Shown here: positions 2,168 to 24,533 of the stretch, one piece after another
Numbering within the stretch: the first letter of the stretch is position 1
Layout: each line of letters opens with the position of its first letter
Assembly (NCBI GenBank): GCA_947589215.1
Contig: CANQCL010000001.1
Coordinates: 62,001-126,000 of the forward strand
DNA length: 64,000 bases
Source: an uncultured Clostridia bacterium
Lineage (GTDB): Bacteria; Bacillota; Clostridia; Oscillospirales; Ruminococcaceae
Direction of reading: 5' to 3'
Position numbers and translations under genes: made by a program
The notes under the pieces: model-generated
Database searches by the model: none
The model's input: only the letters and a program-made list of their open reading frames with translations
What the model was told of the DNA's origin: nothing

Positions 2168-4216
2168 TCAACGACCATTAATATATCCGTCAACAATTGC
2201 CTCTGCAATAACCTTGCCATTATTAGTAATTACATTATTAGTTCTGTCGAATAATGCTGTACCGTCTATACCTGTTTCACCGTTATCCCAGTATGCTGTT
2301 ACTATGCCATGTAAAGATGCATAATAATTCAGCCAATAATCATAATTAGCTACTTGATCAATATTATTTTTATATGCAGGACCATATTCACCAATTAATA
2401 CAGACATACCTAATCCATCTGCAAAATTAGTTATTTTTTCAAACTGGCTATCCATGTATTCTTTTCCACCATATGTAGCATTTTCATCCCATGTAGTTGT
2501 GCCAAAATATCCGGCTATTGTAAAGTCACTAGGAGTATAATAATTGACACATATCATTAATCTGTTATCTGTTGGGTCTGTAGGCTTTTTAAATCCTGCG
2601 ATAGTCCAATCAATATCAGTATTATATCCAACAAGTATTAATACACGGTCTGTATTATTAGCTCCGCCTGCATTACGTACAGCATTAACAAATGCCTGGT
2701 TAATAGCATTGATATTTGCATATTCAGTTGGTGTTGGCGTTGCATTATAATCACCAGCACTATTCATAAGTTCATCAGCTGATTGAAATAGTACCTTTTG
2801 ATCATAACCTGTAAATGCTTGAGCAATATCTGCCCATAATGCTGCATACTTATTTAGTATCTGATTAAATGCATCACCAGTTGCATCAATATTTATCCAA
2901 TGATTAGCAAAACCTGTCATACTATCACCGTGTAAGCTGATTATTGAATACATACCCATATCATATGCATAGTCAACAACATCAAGAATTCTTTCCATGT
3001 AAACATCGTTTACAGTACCGTCTGTACCGATCATATCTAAAAAAGATACCGGTATTCTAATTGTGTTAAATCCGGCAGCTTTTACTGCCTGAATAAGCTT
3101 CTTGGTTGTTTTTGAATTACCAGTAGCCTTTTCATTAACTTTACCAGTTGCATCAACTACTTCAAGAGTATTGCCTAAATTCCATGCAAGACCCATGTTG
3201 TCCTTGATAGTTGTTGCTGTTTGACCTGATACAGGGTTTTCTGTATTCATATCAGTATTATCATACACGTGAATCTCTGTAACTGTGCAATCCTGATATG
3301 CAGCTATAAATTTTACAGTTGTATTAGGGATCTCTGTTGTGTACGTATACTGACCTGCTTCGTGCAATACGTAGTTAGGATCAGGCGTTGAGAATATTTC
3401 TTCGCCAGTTTCCGGGTCGATTGCACCTGTTGAAACTTCAATTTCAGCTTGTGAATAGTTAATTTCACCATCATTGTCTGTATCTGAGCTTGCTTCAGCG
3501 TATGTTACAGTAACGTCAACAGTTGGGTTTACCCATGCGCTGAGGTCAATTGCAGATACTTCAATGTTGTACTGACTTGCATTAACTGTTGCAGCTCCTG
3601 CAGGGTCAACTTTCATTGTACTTGCAGTACCCATTACATACTCACCTGTAATAGTAAATGGCTGCTGTACAAATGGAGTTGTTCCAGACACAAGCTTTAA
3701 TGATTCAATTGATACAACTGATGTACCAATTAAACCTGTCTGAATGTTGATACCATAAGGTTCTTGACCTGTTGAAAGCTTTTTCTCAATTACTTCAATA
3801 GGCACTCTTACCGTATAAACATGACCCTGTTCGGGTGCTACATCAGGATCAGCTGTTTGATCATAACCTAATGGACCTACAGTTGTCTTATCCCAGCCGC
3901 CCCAAGTTGAGTCGAATACAAGAAACTCGAAAGTATCATTGTAGCCAACATATTCGTCTACATTTCCTTGCTCATCTGGTACAGGTTTTGAAGGTGTTCC
4001 TACAGTATCATACTTAAATGATAATTCAAATGCAACATCTTGATAATAGTCTCCTCTATTATATGTCGCAATGTAAAAAGCATCTTCTGTGTAAGGACCG
4101 CCATTTGTGATAAGTGTAGTATCAGCGCTTGCACCTAATGATGCTCCTCCTACAATACCTGTAACTGCTAAAGTTGCAGCTGCTGCATAAGATAATAGCT
4201 TTTTAAACTTTTTCAT
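2168..4216 (-). CDS. Secreted GH5-family (GH5_4-like) protein with divergent active site
   Basis: The start is the ATG at 4216, preceded by AAGGAGGG; a longer reading to 4270 lacks a ribosome site. Residues 1-31 are a signal peptide (MKKFKKLLSYAAAATLAV...ASA). About 32-175 and 180-315 look like two beta-sandwich modules of unknown type. A GH5 TIM barrel covers roughly 335-680. Recognisable GH5 landmarks are WNLGNTLE, FNTIRIPVS (conserved Arg), SLHGD (His about 429), the predicted acid/base Glu about 482, the predicted nucleophile in IGEYG (Glu about 610) and AYWDNG. Two residues nearly invariant in GH5 differ: the usual Asn-Glu-Pro is Asp-Glu-Leu, and the usual His-Tyr-Tyr is Asn-Tyr-Tyr. The second His of the common His-His pair is Gly. 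It could be an altered-specificity glucanase or a non-catalytic binder. No dockerin or cell-wall anchor is visible. Family confident; activity uncertain. Confidence 0.85.
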   Translation of the reverse strand: MKKFKKLLSYAAAATLAVTGIVGGASLGASADTTLITNGGPYTEDAFYIATYNRGDYYQDVAFELSFKYDTVGTPSKPVPDEQGNVDEYVGYNDTFEFLVFDSTWGGWDKTTVGPLGYDQTADPDVAPEQGHVYTVRVPIEVIEKKLSTGQEPYGINIQTGLIGTSVVSIESLKLVSGTTPFVQQPFTITGEYVMGTASTMKVDPAGAATVNASQYNIEVSAIDLSAWVNPTVDVTVTYAEASSDTDNDGEINYSQAEIEVSTGAIDPETGEEIFSTPDPNYVLHEAGQYTYTTEIPNTTVKFIAAYQDCTVTEIHVYDNTDMNTENPVSGQTATTIKDNMGLAWNLGNTLEVVDATGKVNEKATGNSKTTKKLIQAVKAAGFNTIRIPVSFLDMIGTDGTVNDVYMERILDVVDYAYDMGMYSIISLHGDSMTGFANHWINIDATGDAFNQILNKYAALWADIAQAFTGYDQKVLFQSADELMNSAGDYNATPTPTEYANINAINQAFVNAVRNAGGANNTDRVLILVGYNTDIDWTIAGFKKPTDPTDNRLMICVNYYTPSDFTIAGYFGTTTWDENATYGGKEYMDSQFEKITNFADGLGMSVLIGEYGPAYKNNIDQVANYDYWLNYYASLHGIVTAYWDNGETGIDGTALFDRTNNVITNNGKVIAEAIVDGYINGR

Positions 4217-4278
4217 TTTAAGCCCTCCTTGTTTTGATTTAAATTTTACAATGGACAAATTATTATCCATTATTTACT

Positions 4279-4309
4279 ATTATAACACAAAATATGTATT
4301 AGTGTTATA
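4279..4309 (-). promoter_or_regulatory. GH5 promoter with an inverted repeat
   Basis: On the minus strand, a TATAAT -10 box (4279-4284) lies 17 nt from a weak TAACAC -35. TATAACAC (4281-4288) and GTGTTATA (4302-4309) are perfect inverted arms covering both boxes, so a repressor could dimerise across the promoter. The regulator is unknown. Confidence 0.45.
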
Positions 4310-4481
4310 TTTTTTATTTTTTTGTATGGTTGTACAAACTACTCACTCGGCTTTTGTTGCTTTTCACTATATTAATATATGAATACATCAGATATTTAAG
4401 AAAAATATGAAATGTTAGTTGTAACTTGAATTACAAATGCACAAAAATAACCTAACTAAAATAAGAAACAAAATTGTAAAT

Positions 4482-4512
4482 AAAAAACGCAGTACGTTTT
4501 TTGCATACTGCG
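4482..4512 (-). terminator. Terminator of the Rrf2 gene
   Basis: CGCAGTA (4488-4494) and TACTGCG (4506-4512) form a 7-bp stem. The minus-strand tail is TTTTTT. Confidence 0.8.
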
Positions 4513-4544
4513 CTGAAATTATTATTCTTAAACAATATATATAG

Positions 4545-4982
4545 TTATATCTCATAGCTTCCGCCATTCAAATTCTTTTGCATTTCAACTAAATCTTCAA
4601 GCGTTATGTTGTCAACAACGTCATTGATAGCATTGTAGAGCTTCTTCCATACAAATAGTGTAACGCAAGATTCGTTTCTTTCACAGTCGTTTTCCTCTCC
4701 ATCAAGACAAGCCACAGGAGCTAGACTGCCCTCAGTAAGCCTGATAATCATTCCCACTGTGTAATCCTTAGGACTTTTGGCAAGCCTGTATCCACCATTT
4801 GAACCCCGAACGCTTTTGACAAAGCCTGCCTTTGAAAGCAGCGTAATAATCTGCTCCAAATACTTGTTAGAAATACCCTGCCGCTTTGAAATCACTTTCA
4901 ATGAGATGTATTCGCCGTTATTATTTGCCGCTAAATCAACCATAAGTCTTAGTGCGTATCTTCCCTTTGTAGAAATCTTCAT
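4545..4982 (-). CDS. Rrf2-family transcriptional regulator (IscR-like, three Cys)
   Basis: 145 residues with an N-terminal winged helix-turn-helix typical of Rrf2 (MKISTKGRYALRLMVDLA; recognition region ISNKYLEQI; wing VRGSNGGYRLAK). About residues 92-106 carry three cysteines in the pattern Cys-x7-Cys-x5-Cys, the region where IscR and related sensors bind a [2Fe-2S] cluster. A redox or Fe-S sensing role is therefore plausible, though the first spacing differs from E. coli IscR (x5). No isc, suf or cysteine genes adjoin it, so targets cannot be read from context. Start ATG 4982 is preceded by AAGGAA. It has its own terminator and probably its own promoter. Confidence 0.88.
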   Translation of the reverse strand: MKISTKGRYALRLMVDLAANNNGEYISLKVISKRQGISNKYLEQIITLLSKAGFVKSVRGSNGGYRLAKSPKDYTVGMIIRLTEGSLAPVACLDGEENDCERNESCVTLFVWKKLYNAINDVVDNITLEDLVEMQKNLNGGSYEI

Positions 4983-8152: not shown

Positions 8153-8425
8153 TTATTTATCATAGATATTTCGCCTGTGTCCAACATTTAAAACTAAGAT
8201 CGTAACCTGTTTATCTTCAATTTCGGCAATCAGCCTGTAATTTCCAACACGATACCGCCATTGACCCGACCTGTTAGCAGTCAAGCCTTTTCCAAAACTT
8301 CGTGGATTAGTACATCCTTCAAGATTCTTTTCAATCCACCCTATAATCAATGACGCTGTATGTTTGTCCAATTTTTTCAGATCTTTTAATGCTCTGTCAG
8401 AAAAAACTACCCTGTAGCCATTCAT
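8153..8425 (-). CDS. RelE/ParE-superfamily toxin
   Basis: 90 residues with the type II toxin signature: N-terminal YRVVFSDRALKDLKKLDK, central RSFGKGLTANRSGQWRYRVGNYRLIAEIEDKQVTILVLNVGHR. The basic residues and the RYRVGNYRLI strand match RelE-type ribosome-dependent mRNA interferases rather than ParE gyrase toxins, but family alone does not settle the target. The ATG overlaps the antitoxin stop by four bases (ATGA), giving translational coupling. The gene appears intact. Confidence 0.88.
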   Translation of the reverse strand: MNGYRVVFSDRALKDLKKLDKHTASLIIGWIEKNLEGCTNPRSFGKGLTANRSGQWRYRVGNYRLIAEIEDKQVTILVLNVGHRRNIYDK

Positions 8426-8640
8426 ATACCTAACTCCTTTTTAACTTCATCAATAGAATAGGTTATAGGATTTTTTCTGTGTTCTGCAATGGCTTCCTCA
8501 TAGCACTTTAAATCGTATTCATCTTCAATTTTTTCCATTACCGCATTTCTGATCAAGTCTGATAATGAAATATTATTAAGCTCCGCATATTTTTTAAAAA
8601 GCTCTGTATCTTCATCATTTAATCTTACCGAAATAGTCAT
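8422..8640 (-). CDS. RelB-like ribbon-helix-helix antitoxin
   Basis: 72 residues. The N-terminus (MTISVRLNDEDTELFKKYAELNNISLSDLIRNAVMEKIEDE) is a ribbon-helix-helix DNA-binding fold of the DUF6290/RelB-like type; the C-terminal tail is expected to wrap the toxin. It is first in the operon, as usual for type II antitoxins. A 19-bp palindrome overlapping its promoter is the likely autoregulatory operator. Confidence 0.88.
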   Translation of the reverse strand: MTISVRLNDEDTELFKKYAELNNISLSDLIRNAVMEKIEDEYDLKCYEEAIAEHRKNPITYSIDEVKKELGI

Positions 8641-12362: not shown

Positions 12363-12998
12363 ATGGAAAACAATAACTATCCGTTTAAAAATACTCCTTT
12401 GCCTTATAACTACAGCGCCCTTGAACCGTTTATTGATGAAAAGACAATGTACTTACATCACGACAGACATCTTCAAACCTATATTGACAATCTAAACGGC
12501 GCATTAGAGAAACACCCCGAACTGCAAAAGCTGTCTCTTGAACAGCTTATAAAAATCTCCGGCAGACTCCCCAAACAGCTTCAGACTGCTGTGCGGAACA
12601 ATGCAGGGGGAGTATACAATCATCGTTTCTTTTTTGAAGGACTTACTAACCCCGCTAAAGGAGAACCTTACGGCAGGCTTGCTCAGGCAATAAAACAATG
12701 CTTTACTGATTATGAAAACTTCAAAACAGAATTTAAAAAAGCGGCGCTGTCAGTTTTTGGCTCAGGCTACGCATGGCTTGTTTACATCAGACATCAACTG
12801 AAAATTGTTACTACACCGAACCAGAACAGTCCCATAGAGCAGGGCTTATGCCCTATTCTATGCATCGACGTATGGGAACACGCATACTACCTTAAGCATT
12901 ACAACCTACGAGCAGACTATATCGACGATTGGTTTAATATAATCAATTGGGATAATGCAGAACAAAACCTTATAAAATGCATAAAAAACAAGAGGTAA
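12363..12998 (+). CDS. Superoxide dismutase, Fe/Mn family
   Basis: 211 residues, cytosolic. Converts superoxide to hydrogen peroxide and oxygen. Metal ligands are visible at the family positions: His in MYLHHDRHLQTYI, His in GGVYNHRFFF, and Asp and His in CIDVWEHAYYLKHY. The sequence does not let me decide Fe versus Mn. It ends in a terminator shared with the convergent sirtuin gene. Upstream, two near-copies of TTATAACTCG (about 12275 and 12313) could be regulatory, but no regulator is known. Adjacent to the redox-linked operon at 13.1-17.2 kb. Confidence 0.93.
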   Translation: MENNNYPFKNTPLPYNYSALEPFIDEKTMYLHHDRHLQTYIDNLNGALEKHPELQKLSLEQLIKISGRLPKQLQTAVRNNAGGVYNHRFFFEGLTNPAKGEPYGRLAQAIKQCFTDYENFKTEFKKAALSVFGSGYAWLVYIRHQLKIVTTPNQNSPIEQGLCPILCIDVWEHAYYLKHYNLRADYIDDWFNIINWDNAEQNLIKCIKNKR

Positions 12999-13067: not shown

Positions 13068-13937
13068 CTACAGTATATCCTCTATAACTTTACCTATATC
13101 GCTGTTTAAACAGATTGATCTCTCTTCAATATCAGACGGACAAAAGGATTCTCCGTAATTAACACATACATAGAAAGCGTTTTTATTTTCAGCAGTCATC
13201 TTCCAGAACGGATATTTTATAATTACAGGAGTATTCATACCAACGCCCAACTCAAGGAACAAAACTTTCATATTTCTGTGCCTGCGTAAGAATTCAGAAT
13301 ATCTCTTGCTCGCTTTGTGCCAGCCCTCATCTTCCACAAACTTGTTATCTGAACGCAGATTCATTGTCATAGGCCTTCCGCAATGCGGACAAATCGGCAG
13401 TAACTTTACAGGAACACGCATATCCCTTTGATTCTCAACCATTTGGCATACAATATCTTCATTGTCAAAGGTCTCATTACAACAAGGCTCACTGCACTGT
13501 AACAGACCGTAATCACCTTGTGTATAAAACAATCTGCGCTTATCAAAGCCTGCTTTCTGAAAGCAATGGTCTACATTTGTGGTTATTACAAAATAGTCTT
13601 TAACTTTTACCAATTCAAAAAGTTCCTCATAGACAGGCTTAGGTGCATTCATATAACGGTTTACATATATGTGTCTGCTCCAATAAGCCCAAAATTCCTC
13701 CAGCGTTTCAAAAGGATAAAATCCTCCCGAATACATATCAGTAATGCCGTATTTTTCTTTGAAATCTGAAAAATACCTATCAAAGCGCTCTCCTGAATAG
13801 GAAAAACCTGCTGAAGCAGAAAGTCCTGCTCCTGCCCCGATAATAACAGCGTCTGAATTTTTAATTATATACTTTAATTTGTCTATATTATCCGAGTAAC
13901 TGCCTGTAGATGTGCAGATCCTTCTCTGTAAAAACAT
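13068..13937 (-). CDS. SirTM-type (class M) sirtuin, putative protein ADP-ribosyltransferase
   Basis: 289 residues. The NAD-binding Rossmann motif is VIIGAGAGLSASAGFSYSG (about 31-49). The sirtuin core is TTNVDHCFQKAGF (Asn and Asp of the catalytic loop), followed by YTQGDYGLLQCS. A zinc ribbon is formed by CSEPCC and CPHCGRP. Divergence from deacetylase sirtuins and adjacency to a macrodomain gene match the SirTM class, which ADP-ribosylates lipoylated GcvH-L in some Firmicutes and lactobacilli. No gcvH-like or lplA-like gene is in this neighbourhood, so the target here is unknown. Start ATG 13937 has AAGGTGAT upstream and lies 50 bases inside the macrodomain gene. Last gene of the operon. 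Confidence 0.85.
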   Translation of the reverse strand: MFLQRRICTSTGSYSDNIDKLKYIIKNSDAVIIGAGAGLSASAGFSYSGERFDRYFSDFKEKYGITDMYSGGFYPFETLEEFWAYWSRHIYVNRYMNAPKPVYEELFELVKVKDYFVITTNVDHCFQKAGFDKRRLFYTQGDYGLLQCSEPCCNETFDNEDIVCQMVENQRDMRVPVKLLPICPHCGRPMTMNLRSDNKFVEDEGWHKASKRYSEFLRRHRNMKVLFLELGVGMNTPVIIKYPFWKMTAENKNAFYVCVNYGESFCPSDIEERSICLNSDIGKVIEDIL

Positions 13938-14655
13938 TAAATATCACCTTGATTTGATTTTGTCTTTGAAAATCTATTACCGTTTTAACTGCAATTTCCG
14001 CCGCCTTATCATTCGGAAAATGAAATTCTCCTGTTGATATACAGCAAAATGCAATGCTTTTAATGCCATTTTTTACGGCAAGCTCTAAGCAAGAGCGATA
14101 ACAAGATGCAAGCATTTTTTTATCTGCTTCTGTAACCGTACTTGAAATAATCGGTCCAACTGTGTGAATTACATAATCACACGGCAGATTATATGCTTTT
14201 GTAATCTTAGCATTTCCCGTCGGTTCGGCACAACCCTGCTTTTTCATTATTTCAGAACATTCAAGCCGAAGCTGTACTCCTGCATAAGTGTGAATAGCAT
14301 TATCTATACACCCATGACAAGGAGAATAACAGCCTGTCATGCCGCTGTTGGCAGCATTTACGATTGCACAACATTTCAGTGTTGTAATATCTCCCTGCCA
14401 TAAATATATATTGTTCTTAATCGGCTTAAGATCGACAATATCAGTTATACCTTTATTTGCGATTTCCTCTTTCATATATGCGTCCTGCAATGTCAGAAAC
14501 TCTTTGCTTGCAGCTTTCGGCGGACGGATATTTACTAGACTTCGAAACAGCTTAAACTGTTCTGTCTCATTATCGGGAATTACCATATTACTAAAGGCTG
14601 AATTCTCTATAAGCAGATATTCTATCAAATAAAAAAGTCTTTCGTTTTGAGTCAT
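13888..14655 (-). CDS. Zinc-dependent macrodomain ADP-ribosyl hydrolase
   Basis: 255 residues: an N-terminal helical extension, then a macrodomain from about residue 85 (IYLWQGDITTLKCCAIVNAANSGMTG). The insertion CYSPCHGCIDNAIHTYAG supplies Cys and His in the pattern of zinc-containing macrodomains, which reverse SirTM-type modification. Later motifs are CDYVIHTVGP and IAFCCISTGEFHFP (the ADP-ribose phosphate loop). ATG 14655 follows the previous stop by one base (TAG-T-ATG), and its end overlaps the sirtuin gene, so the writer and eraser are translationally coupled. Confidence 0.87.
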   Translation of the reverse strand: MTQNERLFYLIEYLLIENSAFSNMVIPDNETEQFKLFRSLVNIRPPKAASKEFLTLQDAYMKEEIANKGITDIVDLKPIKNNIYLWQGDITTLKCCAIVNAANSGMTGCYSPCHGCIDNAIHTYAGVQLRLECSEIMKKQGCAEPTGNAKITKAYNLPCDYVIHTVGPIISSTVTEADKKMLASCYRSCLELAVKNGIKSIAFCCISTGEFHFPNDKAAEIAVKTVIDFQRQNQIKVIFNVFTEKDLHIYRQLLG

Positions 14656-14656
14656 A

Positions 14657-15274
14657 CTAACCTCGTTTCTCTACCGCATTTGCTGGACATACCTCATAGC
14701 AATTTCCGCAATGCAGACAATGCTCTTGCTGTATACAATAAGGGTTTCCCGACTCAATACATCGCTGAGGACAGCTTTTCAAACATCTTCCGCAGCCTAT
14801 GCAGTATTCTGTAATCTTATAACCCCTGAATGATATTCGTCCGTTTCCTATGGTGTAGCTTTCCCGAAAAATAGGCTTAACGCCAAGATTGAAATACTCA
14901 ATTTCAGCATCGGTTATCTGAAAAACTATACCTGCCAACTTTCGTGTGTCACCTGGATATACATTATAAAGATAAGGCTGCTCTTCAAATATTGTATTAA
15001 TCCATTGTTCCTGCTCATCTTCTTTAACAGGCTTTGCCCTCGCAGAAAGACGAATCATCTCTTTATACTTCGTATATCCCAGAACCTGAACACGTCCGTC
15101 TGTTAAAAGCTCTTTGCAAAACGCTTTACCCTTTGCAGTAAAGAAATACATTGCTTCAGGCTCATAGTGAATAGCGCTGATATTGCGTATTTGTGGATTT
15201 CCAAATTCGTCAACTGTTGCAAACGCCAGAACCCCTACAAATTTAAGTTTTTGTAAACAAGTTTTTGCGTCCAT
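14657..15274 (-). CDS. Flavin split-barrel protein fused to a 2[4Fe-4S] ferredoxin
   Basis: 205 residues. Residues about 1-135 are a pyridoxamine-5'-phosphate-oxidase-like split barrel (LAFATVDEFGNPQIRNISAIHY), a fold that binds FMN or F420. Residues about 155-205 hold two ferredoxin motifs, CIGCGRCLKSCP and CLHCGNCYEVCP, each fit for a [4Fe-4S] cluster. The fusion suggests electron transfer between a flavin and ferredoxin. It lies 9 bases after the nitroreductase gene and one base before the macrodomain gene. It could feed electrons to the radical SAM enzyme or to another enzyme of the operon; that is inference. Confidence 0.85.
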   Translation of the reverse strand: MDAKTCLQKLKFVGVLAFATVDEFGNPQIRNISAIHYEPEAMYFFTAKGKAFCKELLTDGRVQVLGYTKYKEMIRLSARAKPVKEDEQEQWINTIFEEQPYLYNVYPGDTRKLAGIVFQITDAEIEYFNLGVKPIFRESYTIGNGRISFRGYKITEYCIGCGRCLKSCPQRCIESGNPYCIQQEHCLHCGNCYEVCPANAVEKRG

Positions 15275-15283
15275 AATCTACCC

Positions 15284-15862
15284 TCATTCAATAATTTTAC
15301 TTCTGTTTGCTTTTCTCGGTTTAGGCTTAGGATATTCTCCATCACAGTAACCGAGCGTGACAAAGCACCGTGCAATATAGTTCTCAGGTATTTCCCATTC
15401 TTTTAAAAGCTTAGCACCGATTTCATTATCAAAAGTTTCCTCTGCTCGGGAAACAATGCAGGAAGATATGCCGAGATCAAATGCTTCCATAAGCATTGTT
15501 TCTGCACAACAAAAAGCGTCGGGAATTCCGAACATAAAATCCTTTTGTGCAAACACAATGCAAAGTGCAGGCGCACCATAAAAACCACTCTTGATATTTG
15601 GGTCGTCGATAACGCTCGGCTGCTCTTTTGAAACATACGAGCCAATTAGTCGACTGCGGTCAAAATGCGACATATTCATTTTGCCGAGCATATCTACAAG
15701 CTTCGCATTTCGTATGCCTACAATCATACTCCGTTGACCACCGCCTGCATTTGAAGCATAAATACCTGCCTCAATTATTTTCTCCAAATCCTCTCTCGGA
15801 ATCTGTTTGTCCTGATATTTTCTTATTGATCTTCTGCTTTTGATTGCTTCTAATAACTCCAT
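15284..15862 (-). CDS. Nitroreductase-family FMN oxidoreductase
   Basis: About 192 residues. I take ATG 15862 because it overlaps the radical SAM stop as TAATG and begins the family N-terminus MELLEAIKSRRSIRKYQDKQI. Other landmarks: ASNAGGGQRSMIVGI, a FGIPDAFCCAETMLMEAFDLGISSCIVSR stretch, and the C-terminal VTLGYCDGEYPKPKPRK. The family uses FMN and NAD(P)H or ferredoxin for two-electron reductions; some members act as dehydrogenases on RiPP peptides. Substrate unknown; its position between the maturase and the flavin/ferredoxin fusion suggests a shared redox step. Confidence 0.88.
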   Translation of the reverse strand: MELLEAIKSRRSIRKYQDKQIPREDLEKIIEAGIYASNAGGGQRSMIVGIRNAKLVDMLGKMNMSHFDRSRLIGSYVSKEQPSVIDDPNIKSGFYGAPALCIVFAQKDFMFGIPDAFCCAETMLMEAFDLGISSCIVSRAEETFDNEIGAKLLKEWEIPENYIARCFVTLGYCDGEYPKPKPRKANRSKIIE

Positions 15863-16917
15863 TATATCACATCTTTCCAGCATTGTGGGTCAACGTCATA
15901 GAAATTGCCGATTTTTCCGCTTGCAACAGCAGGACAACCCCTGCACCACGCTTTAAGATCACATCTGCCACATTTTTTAAACTTGTCATATTCCCGATAG
16001 GCTTCCATTTCACATACCCAAACATCGGCAATCCTGTCCTCAAACACATTGCCGACCTTGCTATTCTGAACTCGTCGACAGGCATAAATATCTCCCGTAG
16101 GAAGAATCGTCAAATGACAATTTCCGCAGTTACAACCTCCATATATCATTCCATCCTCCAACGCATCAGGAATTTTAAATGCCCCTGTTTCATACTCATA
16201 TAAAGTCCATAAGTGATCTTTTTTATTGAAGTAGGTTTCACAGCCTTTTGCCTCATATTCCTTGAATTTTCTATCGCAATCTTCTAACAACTTTCGATAG
16301 CGTAAAGGCTCAATATCAGTATCCTTTTCCTCGCTTGTAGGACAATAACGAGCAAAGGCAAATACATCTGCCTTATGAGCAACGACAGTATCAATTATAT
16401 CAGGTACTTCTTCAATATTAGTTCCTGACACAGTTGTCATTATTACACTGCGAATACCCGCATTCTTTATACAAGCAATCTTCTCAAGTGTGCAGTCAAA
16501 TGAACCGGGTTTTCTAAACCAGTCGTGAGTTTCCCTCATTCCGTCAATGGAAAGCTGATATTTCTGACAGCCGTATTCTTTTAATCTTTGGCAAACATCA
16601 TCGTTCAAATGGAACGGGTTTCCCATAATAGTAAAAGGTATGCCATGCTCTTTCATCAGTCCAAGCAGTTTCCAAAAATCAGTATGTAGAATAGGGTCTC
16701 CGCCCGTGATGTAGAAATAGGGCGATCGGTTGTACATCTCGCAGAAGTCAAGACAATTGTAGAAAGTTTCCTGCATTTGCTCCCAATTCATAGAGTCTAG
16801 CTTTTTGCCGTTATTCTCCGAAAAAATATAGCAGTGTTTGCACCGCTGGTCGCATTCATCTGTAATGTGCCATTGAAAAGCAAAGTATTGCTTCGCTTTA
16901 GAAATATATTGTTTCAT
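15862..16917 (-). CDS. Radical SAM/SPASM peptide maturase (ACGX-system type)
   Basis: About 351 residues from ATG 16917, chosen for the GAGGATAACAAT ribosome site; a longer reading to 17001 runs through an intergenic hairpin. The radical SAM cluster motif is CDQRCKHC (CxxxCxxC, about residues 22-29), with YITGGDPILHTDFW next. The C-terminal SPASM region is Cys-rich: CNCGNCHLTILPTGDIYACRR, then CGRCDLKAWCRGCPAVASG. SPASM enzymes modify ribosomal peptides, often forming thioether bonds from Cys. Immediately upstream is a Cys-rich repeat peptide, the expected substrate. It resembles the bioinformatically named 'ACGX system' maturases (from memory; not checked). Confidence 0.9.
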   Translation of the reverse strand: MKQYISKAKQYFAFQWHITDECDQRCKHCYIFSENNGKKLDSMNWEQMQETFYNCLDFCEMYNRSPYFYITGGDPILHTDFWKLLGLMKEHGIPFTIMGNPFHLNDDVCQRLKEYGCQKYQLSIDGMRETHDWFRKPGSFDCTLEKIACIKNAGIRSVIMTTVSGTNIEEVPDIIDTVVAHKADVFAFARYCPTSEEKDTDIEPLRYRKLLEDCDRKFKEYEAKGCETYFNKKDHLWTLYEYETGAFKIPDALEDGMIYGGCNCGNCHLTILPTGDIYACRRVQNSKVGNVFEDRIADVWVCEMEAYREYDKFKKCGRCDLKAWCRGCPAVASGKIGNFYDVDPQCWKDVI

Positions 16918-16950
16918 ATTGTTATCCTCACTAAAATAGTATAGATATAT

Positions 16951-17008
16951 AAAATCGGTTTTACCGAGTAGAATTTCAAATGTTTCGGTAAGAATTCTCA
17001 CCGAAACA
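16951..17008 (-). terminator. Two hairpins between precursor peptide and maturase
   Basis: TGTTTCGGT (16981-16989) pairs with ACCGAAACA (17000-17008). A second small stem TCGGT/ACCGA (16955-16967) is followed on the minus strand by TTTTATAT. They could act as a leaky terminator or mRNA-stability element favouring the peptide over the enzymes. Confidence 0.55.
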
Positions 17009-17022
17009 ATGTCTGGAATGGA

Positions 17023-17208
17023 TTACTTGTCTCCAGCACCACAAGCTGAACCACAAGCAGAATTAGCCTCTTCAGGCTTATCGCCTGCACCGCAGGCTGA
17101 ACCGCATGATGCAGGAGTTTCTTCCGGCTTGTCAGAAGCGCCGCAGGCTGAACCGCAAGCAGAAACAGCCTTATCCTCAGTCCATCCGGCGAGATTAGAA
17201 AGTGCCAT
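17023..17208 (-). CDS. Cys-rich ACGX-repeat peptide, putative RiPP precursor
   Basis: 61 residues from ATG 17208, behind the strong site AAAGGAGG. Residues 1-16 (MALSNLAGWTEDKAVS) look like a short leader. The rest is three near-copies of ACGSACGAGDKPEE separated by short linkers, ending in AGDK at the stop. Each unit places two Cys four residues apart and an Asp four after the second (Cys-x3-Cys-x3-Asp). Six Cys in all. Cys-x3-Asp spacing is the crosslink pattern of the ranthipeptide freyrasin, but no modification is proven. Low-complexity Gly/Ala/Ser composition makes a globular fold unlikely. The maturase follows 105 bases downstream. Confidence 0.82.
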   Translation of the reverse strand: MALSNLAGWTEDKAVSACGSACGASDKPEETPASCGSACGAGDKPEEANSACGSACGAGDK

Positions 17209-17261
17209 TGTTATGTCCTCCTTTAAAGTATTCAGATCAGCGTTTGCTCTCTGTACTTACT

Positions 17262-17289
17262 ATTATAATGATATTTTTTACACTCACAA
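17262..17289 (-). promoter_or_regulatory. Probable promoter of the ACGX operon
   Basis: Minus strand: TATAAT (17262-17267), a 16-nt spacer, and TTGTGA (17284-17289). Nearby GTAC and GTTAC repeats (about 17250-17345) between the operon and the divergent HxlR gene are candidate operators. Confidence 0.5.
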
Positions 17290-17418
17290 GTACGCACTTT
17301 TTTGTTCCGTAGTTACCTTGAAGTTACTTTTAGACAGTTACCAAAATGAAACTATTGAATAATTTTTTACCTTTTATCAATAAAATGATAAATGTTAATT
17401 TTCTATGAATATTTGCAC

Positions 17419-17448
17419 TTGACTTCTAAATGGTATGTATGGTATAAT
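17419..17448 (+). promoter_or_regulatory. Promoter of the HxlR gene
   Basis: TTGACT (17419-17424), an 18-nt spacer and TATAAT (17443-17448). Repeated GGTAT/GTATG motifs (17432-17455) overlap the -10 and could be an autoregulatory site. Confidence 0.65.
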
Positions 17449-17490
17449 TAGTATGTAAATTTCTATTTGATACTAAAGGAGTTTTGATAT

Positions 17491-17826
17491 ATGTACAAAC
17501 AGAAAGATTTGAAAGAGCTTCCCGCTTGCCCTGTGGAAACTACTTTAATGCTTATCGGTAATAAGTGGAAGGTACTTATCCTTCGTGACCTCTTAACAGG
17601 TAAAAAGCGATTCGGCGAGCTGAAAAGATCAGTTGGAAACGTATCACAAAAGGTTCTGACTGCTCAGCTTAGAGCAATGGAGGAAAACGGCCTGCTGACA
17701 CGTAAAGTATATGCCGAAGTTCCTCCCAGAGTGGAATATTCGCTAACCGAGCTTGGACAAAGCCTTAAACCTATACTTGACGCTATGCATAATTGGGGCG
17801 AAGTGTATAAATCTTCTTCAAATTAA
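17491..17826 (+). CDS. HxlR-family transcriptional regulator
   Basis: 111 residues, a winged helix of the MarR/HxlR type. The N-terminal CPVETTLMLIGNKWKVLILRDLL includes the conserved Cys that senses electrophiles or oxidants in relatives such as HypR and YodB. The recognition part is KRFGELKRSVGNVSQKVLTAQLRAMEENGLL, and the wing contains VPPRVEYSLTELG. It is divergent from the ACGX operon and shares its intergenic region, so it is the obvious candidate regulator of that operon. Start ATG 17491 follows AAAGGAG. Confidence 0.9.
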   Translation: MYKQKDLKELPACPVETTLMLIGNKWKVLILRDLLTGKKRFGELKRSVGNVSQKVLTAQLRAMEENGLLTRKVYAEVPPRVEYSLTELGQSLKPILDAMHNWGEVYKSSSN

Positions 17827-17878: not shown

Positions 17879-18547
17879 CTAACTGAATGATGGCGGAGTA
17901 ACATTTGTATGCGAAAAGCTGTTGTCTGACGGTGACGGCTCCGACATACTGAAATACATTTTTGCCGCTTTAGTCGTTCCAAAGTCACGGTTTGAACCTG
18001 TTTCCTGAACCTTGTTAAACGCCTCTCTGAACAACGCGTTATGCGCTTCTTCTCTGTTTAGGAGAAAATCTATCGTCTCTTTTACCTTCTTATCGTCAAT
18101 CTGTCTATAGAGATATTCGTAAACTACCTTTGCCCTCTGCTCAGATGCTATATTTGAAAGCAGATCTGCACACAGATCCCCTGTCACCGAGACATAATCT
18201 CCCGTCCACGAATAGCCCGACGCATTTATCAGTCCCGGATTCAACCCTAAAAGGACGTGAGTCTCAATTTCTCCCACAGGCACAGATTGAGCGTCTACAT
18301 CGTGACCGTTTAGCAGATTGATTGTCTCTGCCACCATTTCCATATGACCCAGTTCCTCCGCCGCAATATCAAGAAACAAATCCTTAATATCAGGGTCCTT
18401 AATCCTGAAACTCTGTGACATATACTGCAAAGCCGCCTTCAGCTCTCCGTTTGCTCCGCCAAGCTGCTCCTGCATCAGCGCCGCATACTGTGGATTTGGC
18501 TTTTCAACTTCTACCGGATGAAATAACTGTTTCTCGTGCTTGAACAT
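17879..18547 (-). CDS. Manganese-catalase-family protein (CotJC-like)
   Basis: 222 residues forming a ferritin-like four-helix bundle. Dimanganese ligand candidates occur in GANGELKAALQYMSQ, AAEELGHMEMVAE, SEQRAKVVYEYL and NREEAHNALF. The Pro/Ser-rich tail is normal for Mn catalases and spore-coat CotJC relatives. Expected reaction: hydrogen peroxide to water and oxygen. If this strain sporulates it could be a coat protein, but cotJA/cotJB are not adjacent. The position beside sod and the redox operon favours an oxidative-stress role. ATG 18547 follows AAGGAAGG. Confidence 0.88.
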   Translation of the reverse strand: MFKHEKQLFHPVEVEKPNPQYAALMQEQLGGANGELKAALQYMSQSFRIKDPDIKDLFLDIAAEELGHMEMVAETINLLNGHDVDAQSVPVGEIETHVLLGLNPGLINASGYSWTGDYVSVTGDLCADLLSNIASEQRAKVVYEYLYRQIDDKKVKETIDFLLNREEAHNALFREAFNKVQETGSNRDFGTTKAAKMYFSMSEPSPSDNSFSHTNVTPPSFS

Positions 18548-24023: not shown

Positions 24024-24533
24024 TTACAGCACAAGTGACGGAGCAGAATGTACTCTTGAAGCAAGTTCATTATTAAGCATATAAAGTCCCTTAGGGTCAG
24101 AGCCGAACAGTTCAAACTTTGTAATCATATCCTCAGCGTTCTTCTCCTCCTCGCCCTGCTCTTTAACAAACCAGTCTAACATCTGCATTGTACGAAAATC
24201 CTTGACTGCAAATGCAGCGTCATAGATATCGTTGATAAGCGAGGTCACATACTTTTCATGCTCAAGACCTGCTTTTAAAGGTGCTAAATTGTCGTTAAGC
24301 TCAATATTAGGCTTTGCAATAGCGTCAAGAGTTACCTTCTCCCCGTTATTGTGAAGATACTGATAAAAGAGCATTGCGTGATCCATTTCCTCCTGAGCCT
24401 GAACCTTGTACCAATTTTCAAATCCGTCTAAACCTGCTTCAGCATAGTAATTAGCAAAATCCAAGTACAAGTAAGCTGAATAAAATTCCTTGTTCACCTG
24501 TTCGTTAATAAGCTTTGCTACTTTACTGTCCAT
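24024..24533 (-). CDS. ftnA: Ferritin, non-heme (FtnA type)
   Basis: 169 residues, a four-helix bundle that oxidises Fe(II) and stores iron in a 24-mer. Ferroxidase ligands are recognisable: Glu in NKEFYSAYLYLDFA, Glu/His in QAQEEMDHAMLFY, Glu in LEHEKYVT, and the third-site Glu/Gln in KEQGEEEKNA. ATG 24533 follows AAGGAGTG. It is monocistronic with its own promoter and terminator. Adds to the iron and oxidant-handling genes nearby (sod, Mn catalase). Confidence 0.94.
   Translation of the reverse strand: MDSKVAKLINEQVNKEFYSAYLYLDFANYYAEAGLDGFENWYKVQAQEEMDHAMLFYQYLHNNGEKVTLDAIAKPNIELNDNLAPLKAGLEHEKYVTSLINDIYDAAFAVKDFRTMQMLDWFVKEQGEEEKNAEDMITKFELFGSDPKGLYMLNNELASRVHSAPSLVL

Follow-up and report, generated by a model that had tools for sequence, protein, structure and literature searches.

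In the window, which is the whole stretch of 64,000 nucleotides analysed here, a gene for a small Cys-rich peptide and the adjoining gene for a radical SAM enzyme form a member of the ACGX system already named in NCBIfam, and they are followed by genes for two flavoproteins, a Zn-macrodomain and a class-M sirtuin. At the level of the operon, the best reading is that it probably serves the response to electrophile stress and that its peptide is an intracellular thiol peptide modified by the radical SAM enzyme. The following features bear on this reading:

17023..17208, reverse strand: ACGX-repeat precursor peptide, 61 aa, three C-x3-C-x3-D units (TIGR04341 match)
15862..16917, reverse strand: radical SAM/SPASM maturase, 351 aa, ATG at 16917, Shine-Dalgarno sequence GTGAGGA (TIGR04340, PF04055, PF13186)
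15284..15883, reverse strand: nitroreductase-family flavoprotein (PF00881)
14657..15274, reverse strand: PNPOx-like flavin domain fused to a 2[4Fe-4S] ferredoxin domain (PF01243 and Fer4)
13888..14655, reverse strand: Zn-macrodomain, an ADP-ribosyl hydrolase (PRK04143, 366 bits; PDB 8rsi, E 3.5e-78)
13068..13937, reverse strand: SirTM class-M sirtuin, an ADP-ribosyltransferase (PDB 5a3a, E 1.7e-72)
17491..17826, forward strand: divergent HxlR/DUF24 regulator with one Cys, C13 (PF01638)
17262..17289, reverse strand: promoter-like sequence by consensus reading, -35 TTGTGA at 17289-17284, 16-nt spacer, -10 TATAAT at 17267-17262
17288..17299, no strand assigned: candidate palindromic operator AAGTGCGTACTT (as read on the reverse strand), overlapping the -35 box of the peptide promoter
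16982..17007, reverse strand: 12-bp stem-loop between the peptide stop and the maturase start (fold z -4.5 in the window)

The open reading frame at 17208..17023 encodes MALSNLAGWTEDKAVSACGSACGASDKPEETPASCGSACGAGDKPEEANSACGSACGAGDK (61 aa), which starts with the leader MALSNLAGW and contains the units C18-C22-D26, C35-C39-D43, and C52-C56-D60. The second unit deviates in starting with SCGS, the third in lacking PEE. A strong Shine-Dalgarno sequence, AAAGGAGG, precedes the gene, with the promoter-like sequence farther upstream, and the source genome holds a single copy. The three Cys-x3-Cys-x3-Asp repeats read in the original prediction were thereby confirmed: one ORF in the window has at least four CGxx[CD] matches, and nothing comparable occurred in 20 shuffles of the window. 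The arrangement had also been called new, and this claim has to be withdrawn, since the peptide falls in the NCBIfam ACGX-repeat family, whose profile TIGR04341 covers it end to end (hmmscan against NCBIfam; E 7.7e-15, 55.3 bits, cut-off 28). The same prediction had overlooked the operon, that is, the HxlR regulator, the nitroreductase, the flavin/ferredoxin protein, the Zn-macrodomain, and SirTM.

The search for the repeat in other genomes that had been proposed at the time yielded 87 distinct homologous peptides, drawn from 80 loci of a genome collection and 16 GTDB genomes. They most commonly start with MAL(S)NLxxW and end with CGA(G/S/A)DK, and Cys makes up about 10% of their residues. Gly directly follows 550 of the 557 Cys residues (98.7%). 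At position +4, 287 of the Cys residues have an Asp and 246 another Cys (together 95.7%), and the resulting (C-x3)n-D runs mostly have two Cys (n=2, 226 runs), less often one (n=1, 58 runs, single-Cys units such as CGAxD) and rarely three (n=3, 3 runs). Judged by these sequences, the conserved core of the unit is its Asp-terminated part, and the extra Cys upstream is frequent yet optional. The C-x3-D spacing, which had been likened to that of freyrasin, is thus retained as the unit core across the homologues; it is the spacing that PapB crosslinks in PapA (PMC10470005). This conserved register supports a Cys/Asp-centred modification of ACGX peptides. The variant at one locus (L187 in genome G332, 3442-4746) diverges from this pattern: all its units are of the single-Cys SACGAGD type, the DKPEE linkers are missing, and the divergently oriented gene is LysR-like instead of HxlR.

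A SPASM-type maturase had been proposed for the peptide, and a radical SAM/SPASM gene does adjoin it at 16917-15862. Its product scored 604 bits against TIGR04340 (rSAM_ACGX; cut-off 400; hmmscan against NCBIfam). Both components therefore exceed their curated cut-offs and their genes adjoin, so that the pair as such does not differ from the NCBIfam ACGX pair; the operon context and the register statistics are added here. Literature searches for ACGX, TIGR04340, and TIGR04341, as well as for rSAM/RiPP together with sirtuin or macrodomain, returned nothing relevant, and the operon setting of this already named system appears to be new. We place the maturase start at ATG 16917 with its Shine-Dalgarno sequence, rather than at the GTG with which the longest ORF opens, which leaves 105 bp to the peptide stop. 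The CX3CX2C radical SAM motif and the SPASM Cys residues are conserved at 0.97-1.0 among 97 homologues. An AlphaFold model (pLDDT 88) resembles most closely the PDB folds of SuiB, SkfB, CteB, and anSME, and it has no recognisable N-terminal RRE-like domain. No ACGX-like peptide was found near the distant maturase relatives at loci L020-L022 (37% identity). A defence system was considered and rejected: in PADLOC the maturase resembled viperin only weakly (61 bits), and the matches elsewhere were at trace level.

The operon flanking the pair is found across Lachnospiraceae and Oscillospiraceae. We counted its genes at the 80 loci of the genome collection, each denominator being the loci with enough flank. 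The peptide gene lies directly upstream of the maturase gene in 65/70 loci, and 53/60 carry a divergent HxlR gene. A nitroreductase is encoded at 34 of 52 loci, the PNPOx/ferredoxin protein at 32, the macrodomain at 21, and SirTM, counted within 5 kb, at 33. Loci without the nitroreductase usually have an MDR PIG3-like quinone oxidoreductase in its place; one or the other is present in 50/52, both together in none. No exporter/transporter or protease/peptidase family is conserved across the 80 loci, and none was found in the ORFs read around the peptide, in agreement with what had been noted originally. Because of this lack, the peptide product likely stays intracellular. Three further genes lie near the operon in the window: a superoxide dismutase gene (12363-12998, forward strand) and a Mn-catalase-like gene (17879-18547, reverse strand), neither conserved in other ACGX loci, and a ferritin-like gene (24024-24533, reverse strand). 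Two ACGX loci, L099 and L055, were binned as Candidatus Brocadia and Bacteroides; their maturases are 80-83% identical, and the contigs are probably mis-binned Clostridia.

The divergent regulator has the conserved N-terminal Cys of the YodB/HypR type: C13 is invariant in 75/75 homologues. Its score against NF047364 (RrpB) is 145.8 bits, under the cut-off of 175. In B. subtilis, an N-terminal Cys lets the HxlR/DUF24 regulators YodB, CatR, and HypR respond to quinones, diamide, and HOCl, and the nitroreductase gene yodC is among the genes induced (PMC6943732). The operator candidate AAGTGCGTACTT was found with 0-1 mismatch at 50/66 loci compared to 1/66 shuffles, and many SirTM operons that have no ACGX are preceded by a similar motif. 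The source genome contains two exact sites; the second was taken as a chance match because it lies inside a PotA-like coding sequence. From the B. subtilis precedent, the invariant C13, and the operator candidate we infer a role in thiol/electrophile stress. As in the B. subtilis regulons, an HxlR protein with a conserved N-terminal Cys is found beside a nitroreductase or quinone reductase; the operon described here, with its putative redox regulator, adds a RiPP-like peptide and an ADP-ribosylation pair. At the RNA level, the stem-loop between the peptide and maturase genes recurs (z below -2 in 78/87 loci) and plausibly lowers maturase expression relative to that of the peptide. Positions 16850-17500 gave no Rfam match. 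The Shine-Dalgarno sequence of the maturase gene is preceded by a short CTCGGTAAAACCGAT element (16950-16975, reverse strand), which recurs in several other loci and may affect translation.

We propose that the peptide is a precursor whose units would be modified by the adjacent SPASM radical SAM enzyme. Each unit would receive one thioether from Cys to the β-carbon of Asp, and the thiol of the extra Cys would stay free, bind metal or form a disulfide. The peptide gene would head the operon, repressed by the one-Cys HxlR protein at the palindrome over the -35 box, and derepression would follow once electrophiles, quinones or disulfide stress had modified the HxlR Cys. Kept inside the cell, the product would act as a thiol/redox peptide together with the nitro- or quinone reductase and the flavin/ferredoxin protein, and the SirTM/Zn-macrodomain pair would reversibly ADP-ribosylate some component of this stress response. 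For PapB, which is likewise a SPASM peptide maturase, stimulation by FMN is known (PMC10470005), which makes flavin partners plausible for the ACGX maturase as well. Several observations speak against the stress-operon reading. SirTM is missing within 5 kb at 19/52 loci and occurs without ACGX in 51 genomes, L187 carries a LysR-type gene in place of HxlR, and a maturase without recognisable RRE leaves leader recognition unexplained.

The SirTM and macrodomain genes overlap by 50 bp, and both products have the residues expected of active enzymes of their classes. SirTM has Gln in place of the catalytic His together with the conserved Asn and Arg of class M; these residues (N121, Q140, and R195) correspond to N118, Q137, and R192 of S. 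pyogenes SirTM and are present in 79/79 homologues. The macrodomain contains the Zn-loop CYSPCHGC (Cx4HxC), intact in 66/66 homologues, as well as NAAN and D-x3-H in the form DNAIH, as in Zn-macrodomains. In a survey of 391 genomes of the class, SirTM was present in 16/16 genomes with ACGX over the cut-off and in 51/375 without (Fisher 1e-13). Since these genome counts are phylogenetically non-independent, we also counted by genus as a partial correction, with 10/10 genera with ACGX compared to 35/213 without (5e-8). By comparison of coordinates, no more than 5 kb separate SirTM and the maturase in 13 of the 16 ACGX genomes. The only known SirTM substrate is lipoyl-GcvH-L, with Asp27 as the likely site (PMC4518038, PMC11490716). 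The source genome, which is 99.99% complete, gave no match to a lipoate ligase of the LplA/LipB family and lacks GcvH, its GCV_H matches being biotin carriers; a lipoate ligase is also absent from 15/16 ACGX genomes. SirTM must therefore target something else in the source genome, for which the ACGX peptide makes an attractive candidate.

The alternative that survives best, possible yet in our view unlikely, takes the peptide as the substrate of the SirTM/Zn-macrodomain pair, a thiol carrier matured by the radical SAM enzyme, in place of lipoyl-GcvH-L, that would be ADP-ribosylated at the unit Asp or at a Cys. By analogy to lipoyl-GcvH-L, ADP-ribosylation would silence the peptide and the macrodomain would free it under stress. 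Besides the shared operon and the missing lipoate pathway, this alternative draws on the conserved Asp that closes each unit, the known acceptor being an acidic residue, and on a logic parallel to that of the GcvH-L/LplA2/OYE/LLM/Macro/SirTM operon, with a thiol carrier, its modifier, flavoenzymes, and an ADP-ribose switch (PMC4518038). The extended SirTM operons of Lactobacillales and Staphylococcaceae (PMC4518038, PMC11490716) share the class-M sirtuin, the Zn-loop macrodomain, flavoenzymes, and the stress setting with the operon described here. They differ in that the source genome has an ACGX peptide and a radical SAM maturase instead of GcvH-L and LplA2, and a nitroreductase or MDR quinone reductase with the PNPOx/ferredoxin protein instead of OYE and LLM. 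Still more tentative is the full version of this idea, in which a thiol/redox carrier made by a radical SAM enzyme replaces lipoyl-GcvH-L, switched off by SirTM and on by the Zn-macrodomain under control of a thiol-stress sensor.

Against the peptide as substrate, SirTM is not within 5 kb at 19 of 52 ACGX loci, and about 35 SirTM genomes have neither ACGX nor a lipoate ligase over the cut-off, so that further SirTM targets must exist. Nor do the SirTMs of ACGX loci form a dedicated clade: linked and unlinked ones intermix in the tree (14 label changes, shuffled mean 27). At one locus (L151, genome G197), what seems to be a single deletion at about 8390-8630 joins the 5' part of the peptide gene to a segment from within the nitroreductase gene. 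This locus has thereby lost the maturase together with the greater part of the peptide, and the PNPOx/ferredoxin protein, macrodomain, SirTM, HxlR, and operator-like site are kept. The ACGX loci without SirTM within 5 kb and the common SirTM operons without ACGX indicate that the ACGX and ADP-ribosylation modules are separable. Together with the lack of a SirTM clade and with genome G197, these SirTM operons make it look as if an HxlR-linked ADP-ribosylation operon had gained or shed the ACGX module more than once, and the peptide may be a co-regulated effector instead of a SirTM target. SirTM/macrodomain operons without ACGX at six loci (L155, L156, L159, L161, L163, and L173) keep the PNPOx/ferredoxin gene, most of them with HxlR; we found no published description of this operon type.

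With respect to the chemistry, the repeated (Cys-x3)n-Asp units are the probable site at which the adjacent enzyme acts. A Cys-Asp thioether (-2 Da per link) is our first guess over a thiooxazole (-4 Da), because the Asp of the unit is conserved. The thioether proposed originally thus keeps its support from the CX3D register, but other chemistry is plausible too, given that the maturase scored 161 bits against SbtM and 63 against PapB. In the second of these comparisons it stays far under the cut-off of 340 and outside the PapB family (NF047865). SbtM (TIGR04082) is the next-best named family after its own, with 160.8 bits. Accordingly, an unlikely alternative holds that the maturase would form SbtM-like thio(seleno)oxazole heterocycles at Cys-Gly, by a reaction with loss of 4 H as known for SbtM (PMC11002830), and that the product would be a Cu(I)-binding or metal-buffering intracellular peptide. 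The near-invariant Gly after Cys fits this chemistry, and Cu(I) binding is known for thiooxazole peptides that carry KCG repeats, whose clusters can do without a protease (PMC12538549). However, the SbtM cut-off of 350 is not reached, the N-terminal 195 profile positions remain unmatched, the conserved Asp at +4 is left unexplained, and the conserved genes of the locus include neither a metal transporter nor a metal regulator. A search for SbtM relatives in 245 genomes of the class at 1e-60 gave no match; the controls gave none either, so that this result does not speak for an absence of such relatives. The search with PapB returned mostly one maturase per genome under the PapB cut-off, the source genome included, which we take to be of the SCIFF type.

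A secreted ranthipeptide like freyrasin, with an antimicrobial or signalling function, is improbable. The two systems share the repeated C-x3-D spacing of PapA (PMC10470005) and a SPASM-type maturase, whose modelled fold is nearest to the peptide maturases SuiB, SkfB, and CteB. In contrast to freyrasin, most ACGX units have a second Cys four residues earlier and Gly after nearly every Cys, the maturase lies outside the PapB family, no exporter or protease is conserved across the 80 loci, and the operon genes are of the stress and redox type. Least probable of all is an unmodified peptide that scavenges metals or electrophiles, with the maturase acting on another substrate: the Cys content and the stress-type operon would suit it, but the peptide gene lies just upstream of the maturase gene at nearly all loci and the radical SAM motif is intact in the 97 homologues.

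The ACGX system had been named, and we found no description of its setting or role. If the stress-operon reading is true, common Lachnospiraceae and Oscillospiraceae of the gut would be using a RiPP-type modification for redox defence inside the cell, and not for warfare or export. Should the peptide be the substrate of SirTM, a ribosomal peptide matured by a radical SAM enzyme would represent a new kind of target of reversible ADP-ribosylation in anaerobic gut bacteria.
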